A DNA stretch of 64,000 bases from Spirochaetota bacterium (GCA_017999915.1 JAGNKX010000001.1:434001-498000), one strand, 5' to 3'; positions 27,235-32,109 are shown, numbered from the stretch's first letter. The notes: generated by a model not told the origin, from the letters alone. Translations and numbers: made by a program.

Positions 27235-27849
27235 ATGGACACCGCAAAATACACAATCACCGTCAATGATCTTGCCAGGAAATTCGGACGGCATGCCGTA
27301 TTTAAAAACATCAATCTGTCTGTTGAGACGGGACGGTCCCTCTGCATCACCGGGCCCAACGGATCAGGAAAATCGACCCTGCTGAGGATCCTCGCTGGGC
27401 TCCAGAATCCCACATCCGGGACCGTACTTCTTTCATCGGGCGGCCCCATCGAGAAAGCCCTCTGGATGGACCATATCGGCTATACCGGGCCGCTGGTCAA
27501 TCCCTATGATGAATTGACCGGCATTGAAAATCTCTCATTTGTTCTCAAAGATGGCGGCGCAGCACAGAAGGTCTCGTCGCTCCTCCTTCAATTCAAGCTG
27601 GACCTTCACGGCAATAAAAAAGTTAAGCATTATTCATCGGGCATGAAGCAGCGCCTCAAAATAATCCTGGCTATACTTAACGATCCCCCCATTCTCTTTT
27701 TAGACGAGGCTGGAACAAATCTCGATTCAGACGGGACATCGATACTTCATGGTTATCTCGAATCGGTCCGCACCTCGAAGATAATTATCCTCGCCACGAA
27801 CGACGCAGATGAAGAAAAACTGTGCAGCGGGGTGATCAGGCTTGGGTAA
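27235..27849 (+). CDS. ccmA: Heme exporter ATP-binding protein CcmA
   Basis: ABC ATPase of the cytochrome c maturation complex CcmABCD, which releases holo-CcmE from CcmC using ATP. The sequence shows Walker A GPNGSGKST (40-48), signature YSSGMKQRL (about 133-141) and Walker B LFLDE (154-158). The 204-residue length and the following ccmBCDEF genes fix the assignment. It overlaps ccmB by 8 bases. First gene of the six-gene operon. The start is preceded by a weak AGG; no clear promoter was found in the 300-base upstream gap. Confidence 0.93.
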   Translation: MDTAKYTITVNDLARKFGRHAVFKNINLSVETGRSLCITGPNGSGKSTLLRILAGLQNPTSGTVLLSSGGPIEKALWMDHIGYTGPLVNPYDELTGIENLSFVLKDGGAAQKVSSLLLQFKLDLHGNKKVKHYSSGMKQRLKIILAILNDPPILFLDEAGTNLDSDGTSILHGYLESVRTSKIIILATNDADEEKLCSGVIRLG

Positions 27850-28501
27850 GGATATACTTCGCAATCTACGTAAAGATTTCCTGATCGAGTTCAGGAGCAG
27901 GTTCGCTTTGAACATCGCCGTCTCCTTTGCCGCCATCGTGACCATCGCCATGAGCCTCACGGCCGGGGGTGTTCCCTTTCCGGTGCAGGTGCAGGCGATC
28001 CTCCTCTGGGTCGTCATCTTTTTCAGCGCCATGAACGGCCTCTCCCACATCTTCGTCCGCGAGGAAGACCAGTCGACGGCCTTATTTTTGCGGATCACGG
28101 TCCCGGCCGAATCCGTCTTCATATCCAAATTCATCTTCAACCAGCTATTCATGATGATCATTTTGGCGGTGGTGACACCCCTCTTTCTCTTCTTTTTGCA
28201 GGTGACGGTCATACACGCCCTTCACTTTGTATGCACGATAGCGATAGGGGGAATTTCCGTTGCAGCGGCTACCACAATACTGGCAGCCATGGTCGCAAAG
28301 GCGGGGGGGAAAGGGTCCCTGTTTACAATCATATCTTTTCCCATTCTCCTGCCGGTGCTCTGGGTCTCCATTTCATCGACGGCGGCGGCGCTGAGCGTCC
28401 CGGAGCCAGGGGGAAGGAACCTTCTTTTTTTGCTTGCTTTTTCCGGTTTCATTTCAGTTATATCCTTTCTACTATTCAGATTCGTCTGGATTGAAGATTG
28501 A
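27842..28501 (+). CDS. ccmB: Heme exporter membrane protein CcmB
   Basis: Six-helix permease subunit of CcmABCD. The 219-residue length and hydrophobic profile fit, as does the N-terminal DFLIEFRSRFALN segment before the first helix, a typical CcmB feature. Starts inside the ccmA stop region (8-base overlap; initiation codon TTG or GTG type). Confidence 0.9.
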   Translation: MGKDILRNLRKDFLIEFRSRFALNIAVSFAAIVTIAMSLTAGGVPFPVQVQAILLWVVIFFSAMNGLSHIFVREEDQSTALFLRITVPAESVFISKFIFNQLFMMIILAVVTPLFLFFLQVTVIHALHFVCTIAIGGISVAAATTILAAMVAKAGGKGSLFTIISFPILLPVLWVSISSTAAALSVPEPGGRNLLFLLAFSGFISVISFLLFRFVWIED

Positions 28502-28552
28502 TCATATTGATTATCATCCCGCAGCAAAGGGACACAGCGGAGATCCCGGGCA

Positions 28553-29236
28553 ATGAAAGTTTTAACCGCAGCATTGAAATCATTCTATATCCTGATGCCG
28601 GTCGCCATCGTGATGGCTTTCCTGTGGGCGCCCGCGGCTGAAATACTGGGTGATGCCAGCCGCATCATCTATTTCCACGTGCCCATAGCCTGGGTTTCGA
28701 TTCTGTCCTTTGTCGTGGCGGGACTGCTCTCCATCCTGTTTCTGGCCGACAGGGGCCGCCGGTTCTCCGGCCTTGATGAAAAAGCCCATAATTCAGCGAC
28801 AATAGGCCTGGCGTGCACCGTCATGACCGTCATAACCGGATCGATCTGGGCAAGGATCAGCTGGGGCGTTTTCTGGAACTGGGACCCCCGGGAGACATCC
28901 ATCGTGATAATCCTTCTTATTTACATCGCCTATTTCAGCATTCAGGGTGCCCTGGGCAGCAACGAGAACCGCGGAAGGATAGGCTCCGCCTATCTGATCC
29001 TGGCCATGATCACCCTGCCATTCTTTGCCTTCCTGGTGCCAAGGATCTACCCGTCCCTGCATCCGGACCCGATCATAAACGCCGACCGCACAATTTTTCT
29101 CGACGGCCGGATGCGCGCGACTTTGGCGGTCGCCATCGGTTCCTTTACCCTGTTATTTTGTCATATACTCTCTATCATGAATCGCATCACACGCATACAA
29201 CATCAGATTGAGGAAACCAGTCATGAGGCTGATTAA
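28553..29236 (+). CDS. ccmC: Heme handling protein CcmC
   Basis: Loads heme onto CcmE. The tryptophan-rich WWD signature is seen as WGVFWNWDPRETS (about residues 103-115). The two axial heme histidines are in YFHVPIAWVS (about residue 43) and SLHPDP (about residue 171). It has six membrane helices and 227 residues. It overlaps the next gene by 14 bases. Confidence 0.95.
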   Translation: MKVLTAALKSFYILMPVAIVMAFLWAPAAEILGDASRIIYFHVPIAWVSILSFVVAGLLSILFLADRGRRFSGLDEKAHNSATIGLACTVMTVITGSIWARISWGVFWNWDPRETSIVIILLIYIAYFSIQGALGSNENRGRIGSAYLILAMITLPFFAFLVPRIYPSLHPDPIINADRTIFLDGRMRATLAVAIGSFTLLFCHILSIMNRITRIQHQIEETSHEAD

Positions 29237-29531
29237 AAAAGGAGCGATCCTGCTCTGCATCGTATTATTGATCATCACTGTAAAGGGATTTCCCGGCGAT
29301 TCCGGAACGGATCGCTCTTCATCGTTCCTGCCCATGGATACGCTCTACGCCCAGGAACCCGTTACGTCCGATCAGATCCCTCGTGATAAAGATCAAAAAT
29401 CCGAGAATACGACAACGCTCTACCTGGTCATGGCTGTGATCCTTTTCATATGGCTCGGGCTGGCCCTTTTTCTGTTCAGACTGGACCGCAAAGTGGCACG
29501 GCTGGAACGGCAGACAAAAGACCTGAAGTGA
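29223..29531 (+). CDS. CcmD-like small membrane protein
   Basis: A 103-residue protein with an N-terminal hydrophobic helix and a second helix (LYLVMAVILFIWLGLALFLF) followed by a basic tail with RLDRKVARLERQTKDLK. Its placement between ccmC and ccmE and the late helix plus basic tail match CcmD. Most CcmD proteins are 50-70 residues, so the N-terminal half with its extra helix is an extension. GAGGAA lies 6 bases before the ATG inside the ccmC end. Confidence 0.75.
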   Translation: MRLIKKGAILLCIVLLIITVKGFPGDSGTDRSSSFLPMDTLYAQEPVTSDQIPRDKDQKSENTTTLYLVMAVILFIWLGLALFLFRLDRKVARLERQTKDLK

Positions 29532-29552
29532 ATCTCTTACCACCGAGGCGCC

Positions 29553-29927
29553 ATGAAATATCGAACAATCATACTTTTCATCGTGGGGCTGGCGTTCCTG
29601 GTCGCAGCCGTTTTCTTCGTCAGCGACGACATCCTGTCGCCCTACGTTCCATTCAAAGAGGCACAGGCCAGCGCGGAAAAATACGTCCAGATCATAGGTA
29701 AACTCGATAGATCGGTCCCGGTCAGCCACAGCGAGGGTGAATTTACTTTTACCGTTATTGACAGGGACGGGACCAGGATGCGGGTACTCCACCGGGGGAC
29801 CAAGCCGCAGAACTTCGAGCACGCGGAACAGATTGTCATGCTCGGCAGGTACAGGACAGACGGAAGCATCTTCGATGCGGACAAGGTCCTGGTGAAATGT
29901 CCGTCCAAATACAGGAGAAAAATGTAA
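29553..29927 (+). CDS. ccmE: Heme chaperone CcmE, cysteine variant
   Basis: Carries heme through the periplasm from CcmC to CcmF. It has one N-terminal membrane anchor and an OB-fold domain, 124 residues. In classical CcmE heme binds covalently to a His in a HxxxY motif. Here the matching position is Cys116 (codon 29898-29900 TGT) in a CPSKY, i.e. CxxxY, motif. This CxxxY type is established in archaea and some Deltaproteobacteria, where CcmH is absent. The genes around it lack ccmH, so this operon follows the variant System I. The stop is two bases before the ccmF ATG. Confidence 0.93.
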   Translation: MKYRTIILFIVGLAFLVAAVFFVSDDILSPYVPFKEAQASAEKYVQIIGKLDRSVPVSHSEGEFTFTVIDRDGTRMRVLHRGTKPQNFEHAEQIVMLGRYRTDGSIFDADKVLVKCPSKYRRKM

Positions 29928-29928
29928 C

Positions 29929-32109
29929 ATGAGCTCCAACGCGGGAAACATACTGATCATCCTGTCCCTGGCCTTATCCGTCGGTGCAACCATCGCCATG
30001 ATCCTATCCGCCGCAGGCAGGGTACGGTTCTCCAGGCCTGCCGCCATCCTCTACTGGATTACCGGTGCCGGCATTGCCCTTTCCGCGATCCTGCTCCTCT
30101 ACTACTTCATCGAATACGACTATCGCTTTGCCTATGTCTTTGACAATTCATCAAGAGACCTTCCCCTTGCCTACCGCATAGCTGCTTTCTGGGCCGGCAA
30201 GGAAGGCAGCTTTCTTCTCTGGCTCCTCTTTCTCAACCTGTTCGGATTCGTTATAATCCGGAAGAAGGGTCCCGAATCTGAAATCGTCGCGTCGGTCATG
30301 CTCCTCTCCCAGATATTCATACTGATCATTCTCCTTGTGGAAAGCCCCTTCACGTACATATGGGACAAATTCCCGGAAAGCATAAGCCCCGGCATGGCCC
30401 CCGGCGACGGCGCAGGGCTCAATCCCCTTCTCAAGGACCCGTGGATGGTGACTCACCCGCCTATCCTTTTTCTCGGCTATGCATCGTCTACGGTCATCTT
30501 CTCCTATGCGATCGCGGCCCTGGTGAAGAGGGAATACCGTTCATGGGTGTCAGCCTCCTACCCCTGGCTCCTTTTCAGTATGGTGACCCTGGGTGTAGGG
30601 ATTTTCCTGGGCGGCTACTGGGCCTACACGGTCCTCGGCTGGGGAGGCTACTGGGGATGGGACCCTGTCGAAAACTCATCCCTCATTCCGTGGCTCGTTT
30701 CCATCGCCCTGGTCCATGGCTTTGTCATACAGCGACGAAACAGGACCCTGGCGCGGACCAATATCATACTTGCCCTCGCATATTTTCTCACGGTATTTTA
30801 CAGCACCTGGCTTACGCGGAGCGGCGTGCTTTCCAATTTTTCCGTCCACTCCTTCGCGGCTTCGGAAGTGGCGACATTCCTCATGGTCTTTATGCTGGCA
30901 TACATAGCGGGAGCGGCAGTTATTTTCAGCCTCCGCGTTACAACCATTACAGGGGAAAAGCTGGATGCGCCTTTTCTTGATTGGAAGACCATGACCGTGT
31001 ACGGCATCATAGTCCTCATGGCTTACTCCATCATCATACTGGGGGGAACGTCGATGCCCCTTCTTTCCCAGCTGTTCATGGCTCGTCCCACCAATGTGAC
31101 GGCTTCTTTTTATAACAATTTCTCAATGCCCCTGGGAATCATAATGCTCGTGCTGATGGTTACAGCCACGACGATGATAGTAACGAAGGGAAATGGTATT
31201 CTGAAAAAGGAAACAATCATATCTTTTGCCGGCGCTCTCATCCTGGGCATCGCAATCAACTGGGGATTCACCGGGAGCGTCCCGGCCTATTTGTATTCCG
31301 TCCTGGCGATCTTTGTCATGGCGCAGTCCATTGCCGACATGTTGAAATCTAAATCCGCCGTAATCCTCCCATCCCGCCTGGCCCATATCGGCATCGGCCT
31401 TTTGATACTCGGCATAATAACGTCGAATTTCCATACCACATCGGTCCAGAAAAAACTGGACTACGGCACAAAGGCATCAGTTGATTCCATGGATATCACC
31501 TTTTCCGGGGTCACGGAAGAAAAAGAATCCCGTCTACGCTTTACCGTCCAAAGGGGCCAGCGGACTGACACTATTGAAACGGCCTATTATTTCCATGAAA
31601 AAACCCAGTCCATATACAAGGAGCCGTATATCTTCGCCGGTTTTTTCAATGATATCTATATCGCCCCGGAAAATTATGAAAACGGATCCGATGCCGTTAC
31701 GAATTTGATCATCGGCAAAGGCGAGGAAAAAAAATTCAGCGGAGTGACCGTCGGCTTTACCGGGTTCAGGACCGAGCATATGACATCGGGGGAGCCCTCA
31801 ACCTACGCCGATATTAAAGTAAACGGCATCCCCCTCTCTCCAGGCATTGTCTTCAGCCGCGGCGCCATGCATTCGCAGGACTGTCCGATCCCGGGCACCG
31901 ACCGGTCTGTTTCCCTCCGCGACATAGACGCGAACAGTAAAAAGATACTGCTCCATATAACACCGGGAAAAAACATAGCGGTGCCGGCCGATTCGGTCCT
32001 GATCACCGTCACCAGGAAGAGGCTCATCTGGCTGGTATGGCTGGGAACGATTTGTATCGCCTGCGGCGGAGGTTACGGGCTGATTCGATCGCTGCGAAGC
32101 AGAACATGA
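29929..32109 (+). CDS. ccmF: Cytochrome c heme lyase subunit CcmF
   Basis: A 726-residue multi-helix protein that attaches heme to apocytochrome c. The WWD heme-handling motif is visible as GWGGYWGWDPVE (about residues 235-247), and the surrounding helices and conserved His-rich loops match the family. The C-terminal periplasmic domain is present. Last gene of the ccm operon; ccmG, ccmH and ccmI are not found downstream. The next gene, on the opposite strand, is unrelated. Confidence 0.95.
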   Translation: MSSNAGNILIILSLALSVGATIAMILSAAGRVRFSRPAAILYWITGAGIALSAILLLYYFIEYDYRFAYVFDNSSRDLPLAYRIAAFWAGKEGSFLLWLLFLNLFGFVIIRKKGPESEIVASVMLLSQIFILIILLVESPFTYIWDKFPESISPGMAPGDGAGLNPLLKDPWMVTHPPILFLGYASSTVIFSYAIAALVKREYRSWVSASYPWLLFSMVTLGVGIFLGGYWAYTVLGWGGYWGWDPVENSSLIPWLVSIALVHGFVIQRRNRTLARTNIILALAYFLTVFYSTWLTRSGVLSNFSVHSFAASEVATFLMVFMLAYIAGAAVIFSLRVTTITGEKLDAPFLDWKTMTVYGIIVLMAYSIIILGGTSMPLLSQLFMARPTNVTASFYNNFSMPLGIIMLVLMVTATTMIVTKGNGILKKETIISFAGALILGIAINWGFTGSVPAYLYSVLAIFVMAQSIADMLKSKSAVILPSRLAHIGIGLLILGIITSNFHTTSVQKKLDYGTKASVDSMDITFSGVTEEKESRLRFTVQRGQRTDTIETAYYFHEKTQSIYKEPYIFAGFFNDIYIAPENYENGSDAVTNLIIGKGEEKKFSGVTVGFTGFRTEHMTSGEPSTYADIKVNGIPLSPGIVFSRGAMHSQDCPIPGTDRSVSLRDIDANSKKILLHITPGKNIAVPADSVLITVTRKRLIWLVWLGTICIACGGGYGLIRSLRSRT

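Follow-up and report, generated by a model that had tools for sequence, protein, structure and literature searches.

A System I* cytochrome c maturation operon with a Cys-type CcmE in a Spirochaetota genome

A six-gene cytochrome c maturation operon occupies positions 27235 to 32109 of a 64,000-nucleotide stretch of DNA (the window) from a Spirochaetota bacterium (GCA_017999915.1, JAGNKX010000001.1:434001-498000). It is very probably a complete system of the System I* type, inherited vertically within its Spirochaetota order. The evidence consists of the gene content, a Cys at the haem-binding column of CcmE, the catalytic residues of CcmF, a DsbD and cytochrome substrates encoded elsewhere in the genome, and the finding of no detectable CcmH and no CcmG over cut-off. 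The genome is 5.46 Mb in size and 99% complete. An earlier note on this DNA had described a ccmABC-D-E-F operon of variant System I in a likely spirochaete, with Cys116 of a CPSKY motif in place of the haem-binding His of CcmE and with no ccmH or ccmG at the operon. These descriptions were borne out: all six genes lie in order on the + strand with profile matches, the host belongs to the Spirochaetota, and the lack of CcmH, and of CcmG over cut-off, extends to the whole genome.

Alignment places Cys116 of CcmE (KCPSKY) in the same column as His130 of Escherichia coli MG1655 CcmE (KHDENY), and Tyr120 falls in the column of the E. coli motif Tyr. CcmE therefore lacks the haem-binding His of classical System I and carries the CxxxY motif of System I*, as CPSKY at residues 116 to 120. 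CPSKY is the commonest motif of System I* CcmE proteins, found in 25 of 36 (Stevens et al., 2011, PMC3601427). The nearest solved CcmE, 2KCT of Desulfovibrio vulgaris, is a weak match (E 0.047). Covalent binding of haem through the Cys is attributed to Desulfovibrio System I* CcmE in the account of Goddard (2010) given in PMC3601427, and the CcmE of Methanosarcina requires its Cys (PMC9084895); by analogy with both, haem would be attached to Cys116.

Some CcmE-like proteins encoded upstream of ccmF in bins of Bacteroidetes, Ignavibacteria and Armatimonadetes lack the haem motif altogether (L109:6448-6792, L110:7490-7855, L115:7642-7995 and L141:7482-7940), and the L115 and L141 copies follow a normal CPSKY CcmE. 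Two haloarchaeal plasmid CcmE proteins (L242:10105-10479 and L245:249-704) end in RAHEGE, with neither the Cys nor the motif Tyr, contrary to the description of nearly all archaeal CcmE proteins as Cys-type. The CcmF proteins at these two loci are long (800 and 778 amino acids, respectively) and do not match the second beta domain described below.

No CcmH was found in the window genome, either with PF03918 or with a profile built from seven spirochaete CcmH proteins. PF03918 was also negative in 39 other CcmE-bearing genomes of the order, and the spirochaete profile gave no match in any of the order's 46 genomes. This negative is meaningful because the spirochaete profile detects the CcmH proteins of family f34, which were not used in building it, at E values of 1e-20 to 1e-30, and PF03918 had largely missed them. 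The CcmG search of the window genome yielded nothing over cut-off, with only three sub-threshold thioredoxin-like matches to TIGR00385. PF05140 had no match, and the genome thus shows no ResB, the mark of System II (ResBC/CcsBA). Of the classical System I proteins, CcmH is likewise undetected and CcmG does not appear over cut-off, and absence of CcmH is a common, although not required, trait of System I*.

The Cys-type CcmE is the rule among CcmE-bearing Spirochaetota. Of the 393 Spirochaetota genomes sampled, 82 have CcmE, including 41 of the 46 in the window's order, and all 81 proteins with a readable haem column are Cys-type; the remaining one lies in an assembly gap. The motif is CPSKY or CPSRY within the order and almost always CASKY, CASRY or CTSKY elsewhere in the phylum. 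Outside the order, PF03918 finds CcmH in 25 of 41 CcmE-bearing genomes, and the spirochaete profile adds five more at the ccm locus, downstream of ccmF. CcmH is thus encoded in at least 30 of 41 such genomes outside the order and in none of 46 within it, while every readable CcmE has the Cys; the two traits are therefore not linked. The earlier note had assumed that loss of CcmH and the His-to-Cys switch go together, yet in this phylum they are separate traits. According to Stevens et al. (2011, PMC3601427), CcmH is retained in roughly one Cys-type system in three, and the CcmH of Leptospira interrogans has already served as a query in the literature (PMC4429474). The separateness of the two traits bears on models of haem release from CcmE.

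The divergent f34 CcmH proteins carry CQCGCH or CGCGCH and are encoded downstream of ccmF (L087:4941-5486, L091:10800-11348 and L084:4426-5160). They were not reported by the PF03918 search of genomes G176 and G187.

CcmF of the window retains H176, H263, H307 and H486 and the WWD segment GGYWGWDPVEN, all invariant over 43 relatives. In the CcmF family these serve as ligands, for the b-haem and for the attachment-site haem. The genome also encodes a full-length DsbD with an N-terminal lipobox, DsbD_TM and a C-terminal thioredoxin motif (WCPNC), and the DsbD_TM domain recurs in 43 of the order's 46 genomes. Reduction of the apocytochrome, for which the earlier note saw no explanation, thus has a candidate route. 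Potential substrates are plentiful: closely spaced CXXCH pairs number 26 in the window genome against 0 in a reversed control, and they sit in exported proteins with 3 to 12 haems, of class III, c7-like and octahaem types.

In the proposed pathway, CcmABCD would load haem onto Cys116 of CcmE at the outer face of the inner membrane. CcmE would then hand the haem to CcmF, which would reduce it through its b-haem and attach it to the CXXCH of exported cytochromes without CcmH or CcmG. The apocytochrome thiols would probably be kept reduced by DsbD, alone or together with general periplasmic thioredoxins. That CcmF may work without CcmH is suggested by work on Desulfovibrio and Methanosarcina (PMC3601427, PMC9084895); according to PMC3601427, citing Goddard (2010), Desulfovibrio System I* needs neither CcmH nor CcmG to mature cytochromes in E. 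coli.

In family f2 of the order, a cytochrome gene with five CXXCH motifs adjoins the ccm operon (L053, L054, L056, L061, L063 and L071), and the L053 copy is cytochrome c554-like by Pfam. An AhpC/TSA-family protein (L198:1420-2022; C22:66820-67182 in the window genome) has an in-frame TGA at a U-P-Y-C site and is probably a selenoprotein.

Several observations weigh against the reading of the operon as a CcmH-free System I*. Haem binding to the Cys is not uniform in this type, as non-covalent binding was reported for D. vulgaris CcmE (PMC3884852). G057 and G146, genomes of the order without a CcmE match, encode DsbD too, so the protein is not specific to the pathway. PF03918 alone missed several spirochaete CcmH genes, and a CcmH too divergent for both profiles is conceivable in the window genome. 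The operon might accordingly be a canonical system in disguise, with the role of CcmH filled by a divergent CcmH, or by a CcmG- or TlpA-like thioredoxin, encoded elsewhere. Divergent CcmH genes overlooked by PF03918 beside ccmF in f34 lend this some plausibility, as does an exported TlpA-like thioredoxin (SYCRPC) encoded at C21:65851, but the profile that finds the f34 genes finds none in the order, and the TlpA-like protein occurs in only 21 of its 46 genomes. This thioredoxin was rejected as a dedicated Ccm partner because of its patchy distribution. The operon itself offers no substitute either. Across 41 loci of the order, the conserved genes are ccmA, ccmB, ccmC, ccmE and ccmF only, the short and poorly detected CcmD aside; no extra gene is conserved there, in a comparison that did not include a dedicated CcmI profile, and an unrecognised operon gene standing in for CcmH was therefore rejected. 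The other recurrent matches at the operon proved to be housekeeping genes (smpB, for instance) or shadow reading frames of the ccm genes themselves. A disguised canonical system is improbable on this evidence.

The history of the operon was addressed with CcmF. A genome scan of GTDB with a CcmF alignment supplied the 80 best loci for comparison. The non-spirochaete loci among them belong mainly to Ignavibacteriota, Bacteroidota, Negativicutes, Rhodothermota, Armatimonadota and Acidobacteriota, with Calditrichota closest, and CcmE at these loci is always Cys-type where its haem column can be read. CcmF of the window's order forms one clade (support 99 to 100) within a group of 49 rows, in which its nearest relatives are from Ignavibacteriota, Calditrichota, Bacteroidota, Acidobacteriota, Armatimonadota and Negativicutes. 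This group is split with support of 100 from other spirochaetes, Planctomycetota, the anaerobic methanotrophic archaeon ANME-2 and E. coli. A single origin of all spirochaete CcmF proteins is rejected (approximately unbiased test, p 1e-4), and Spirochaetota therefore hold two CcmF lineages, both with Cys-type CcmE. Among 50 genomes of named relatives, PF03918 finds CcmH over cut-off in one only, the ANME-2 archaeon, which lies outside the clade; this wider negative is weaker than that for the order because PF03918 misses divergent CcmH.

The earlier note had suggested transfer or an old origin and had raised a grouping with archaeal or deltaproteobacterial variants. Since a single origin is rejected, one of the two lineages was likely party to an old transfer, as recipient or as donor, and this is the one point in favour of foreign acquisition. 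Recent acquisition from an archaeon or a deltaproteobacterium is, nevertheless, very improbable. CcmE is present in 41 of 46 genomes of the order, gene order is near-constant in 40 loci, and CcmF forms a single well-supported clade, which argues against sporadic transfer. The ANME-2 CcmF, the sole archaeal sequence in the tree, is separated from the order by the main split, and the 80 best matches include no deltaproteobacterial sequence.

Within this CcmF lineage, the periplasmic part of the protein is duplicated, which is possibly the one new point of the system. The AlphaFold model of the window CcmF (predicted local distance difference test score [pLDDT] 92.8) has the CcmF structure 6ZMQ as its top Foldseek match (E 2.6e-22), and the sequence match to 6ZMQ ends at residue 583. 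An all-beta module spans residues 503 to 700 (pLDDT 95.5), and its two halves are related to each other (hhalign E 1.8e-7, probability 94%). The first beta domain is also present in CcmF of E. coli and ANME-2. The second turned up in nearly all full-length CcmF records of the clade (111 of 113, including five duplicate records). No convincing match was seen in E. coli, ANME-2, Planctomycetota or the remaining spirochaetes; family f10 has a short local match only. Structurally, the two-domain module is most similar to the periplasmic domain of CcsBA (7S9Y, Z 10.1, root mean square deviation 2.5 over 83 residues; 7S9Z, Z 7.7). Foldseek returned nothing for the module at an E value of ≤0.001 and ranked CcsBA first at 0.002 to 0.004. 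In PMC10663686, the matching region of CcsBA is characterised as a beta cap sitting over the active-site haem.

A tentative and rather unlikely proposal is that this CcmF lineage, which extends beyond the order to a dozen or more other phyla, duplicated its beta domain into a CcsBA-like cap, and that the duplicate took over the substrate handling of CcmH. The second domain would then replace the apocytochrome-binding part of CcmH and make CcmF more self-sufficient, comparable to CcsBA. The tandem duplication, its near-universal presence in the clade and lack of convincing matches outside it, the scarcity of PF03918 CcmH among the named relatives and the resemblance to CcsBA are all consistent with this idea. 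However, the domain and the absence of CcmH coincide on one tree split, which may be a single historical coincidence, and functional replacement is for this reason put forward as a hypothesis. CcmH also supplies thiols, whereas the second domain has no conserved Cys. In addition, a CcmF of the same order (L066:5657-7627, genome G170) has the second domain cut to a short linker in a genome where no CcmH was found, so that a strict requirement for the domain was rejected; G170 is a binned assembly, and its short CcmF could be an error. CcmF proteins of f34 have loops of similar length (231 to 251) without the duplicate and co-occur with CcmH. Loop length as a marker of CcmH absence was rejected, as f34, with its long loops, had first seemed to lack CcmH until a better profile found the gene immediately after ccmF in several of its genomes. 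If the proposal is true, the domain would be a compensatory feature of the sort that earlier bioinformatic studies of System I* sought but did not find. Residues 591 to 700 are a discrete part of CcmF that might help to explain CcmH-free synthetases, a question left by the System I* literature.

Features of the ccm operon in the window
Feature	Position	Strand	Evidence
ccmA, ATPase of the CcmABCD haem-handling ATP-binding cassette (ABC) complex	27235..27849	+	Pfam ABC_tran 5.4e-26; TIGR01189 6.8e-32, under curated cut-off
ccmB, membrane subunit, TTG start, overlaps ccmA	27842..28501	+	PF03379 E=2.2e-16
ccmC, WWD-domain haem-handling subunit	28553..29236	+	PF01578 (Cytochrom_C_asm) 1.2e-24; TIGR01191 4.8e-31, under cut-off
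ccmD, CcmD_alt type	29223..29531	+	PF20077 1.4e-9; TIGR04391 28.2 bits against cut-off of 24
ccmE, haem chaperone, Cys type	29553..29927	+	PF03100 3.1e-15, over cut-off
CPSKY haem-binding motif of CcmE (Cys116, Tyr120)	29898..29912	+	Alignment with E. coli CcmE
ccmF, cytochrome c synthetase, 726 amino acids	29929..32109	+	PF01578 N-terminal part 1.8e-32; PF16327 (CcmF_C) 5.5e-18
CcmF first periplasmic beta domain, residues 504-586	31438..31686	+	Profile d1: window E 1e-26, E. coli 1.3e-5
CcmF second, duplicated periplasmic beta domain, residues 591-700	31699..32028	+	hhalign of halves; AlphaFold model; CcsBA match

CcmB, CcmC, CcmD_alt, CcmE and CcmF of the window all exceed the curated Pfam cut-offs. 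The most likely start codon of ccmD is the ATG at 29223, not the TTG at 29208. The operon is flanked by unrelated genes, for a MORN-repeat protein upstream and for an Hpt-domain protein and NAD kinase downstream. In the order, ccmA is the first gene in 40 of 41 loci and the near-constant arrangement is A-B-C-(D)-E-F. An apparent ccmE-ccmF fusion at L069 was rejected as an assembly gap of Ns, and a search of viral contigs found no relative.

The operon shares with System I the presence of CcmA to CcmF homologues in one operon and, with E. coli in particular, the same gene order and the His ligands and WWD segment of CcmF. It differs from E. coli, which has His130 in CcmE, CcmG, CcmH and only one periplasmic beta domain in CcmF. 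The streamlined Ccm system of Methanosarcina acetivorans (PMC9084895) likewise has a CXXXY CcmE and no CcmH, but it lacks CcmD and splits CcmF into CcmF1 and CcmF2, whereas the window has CcmD and a single-protein CcmF. Operons of Ignavibacteriota, Calditrichota, Bacteroidota, Armatimonadota and Negativicutes lie on the same side of the CcmF tree and have a CPSKY CcmE next to ccmF, no PF03918 CcmH over cut-off and the second beta domain. Their CcmF proteins are, however, only about 28 to 33% identical to that of the window, and several of their loci adjoin multihaem cytochrome genes, which the window operon does not.

A close counterpart is System I* of Desulfovibrio desulfuricans and D. vulgaris (Allen, 2006; Goddard, 2010; PMC3601427), which, as summarised in PMC3601427, shares the CxxxY CcmE with CPSKY as the commonest motif, CcmD, and the absence of CcmH and CcmG. 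CcmI, which reportedly assists System I*, was not seen at the window operon, where no CcmI profile search was made. The host is the other difference, here a member of the Spirochaetota. The view of the earlier note that the operon extends the range of the variant stands as a taxonomic extension, with the qualification that the operon is an inherited norm in its order and occurs in many other phyla too. The system itself is the known System I*, described between 2006 and 2011, in a spirochaete host.

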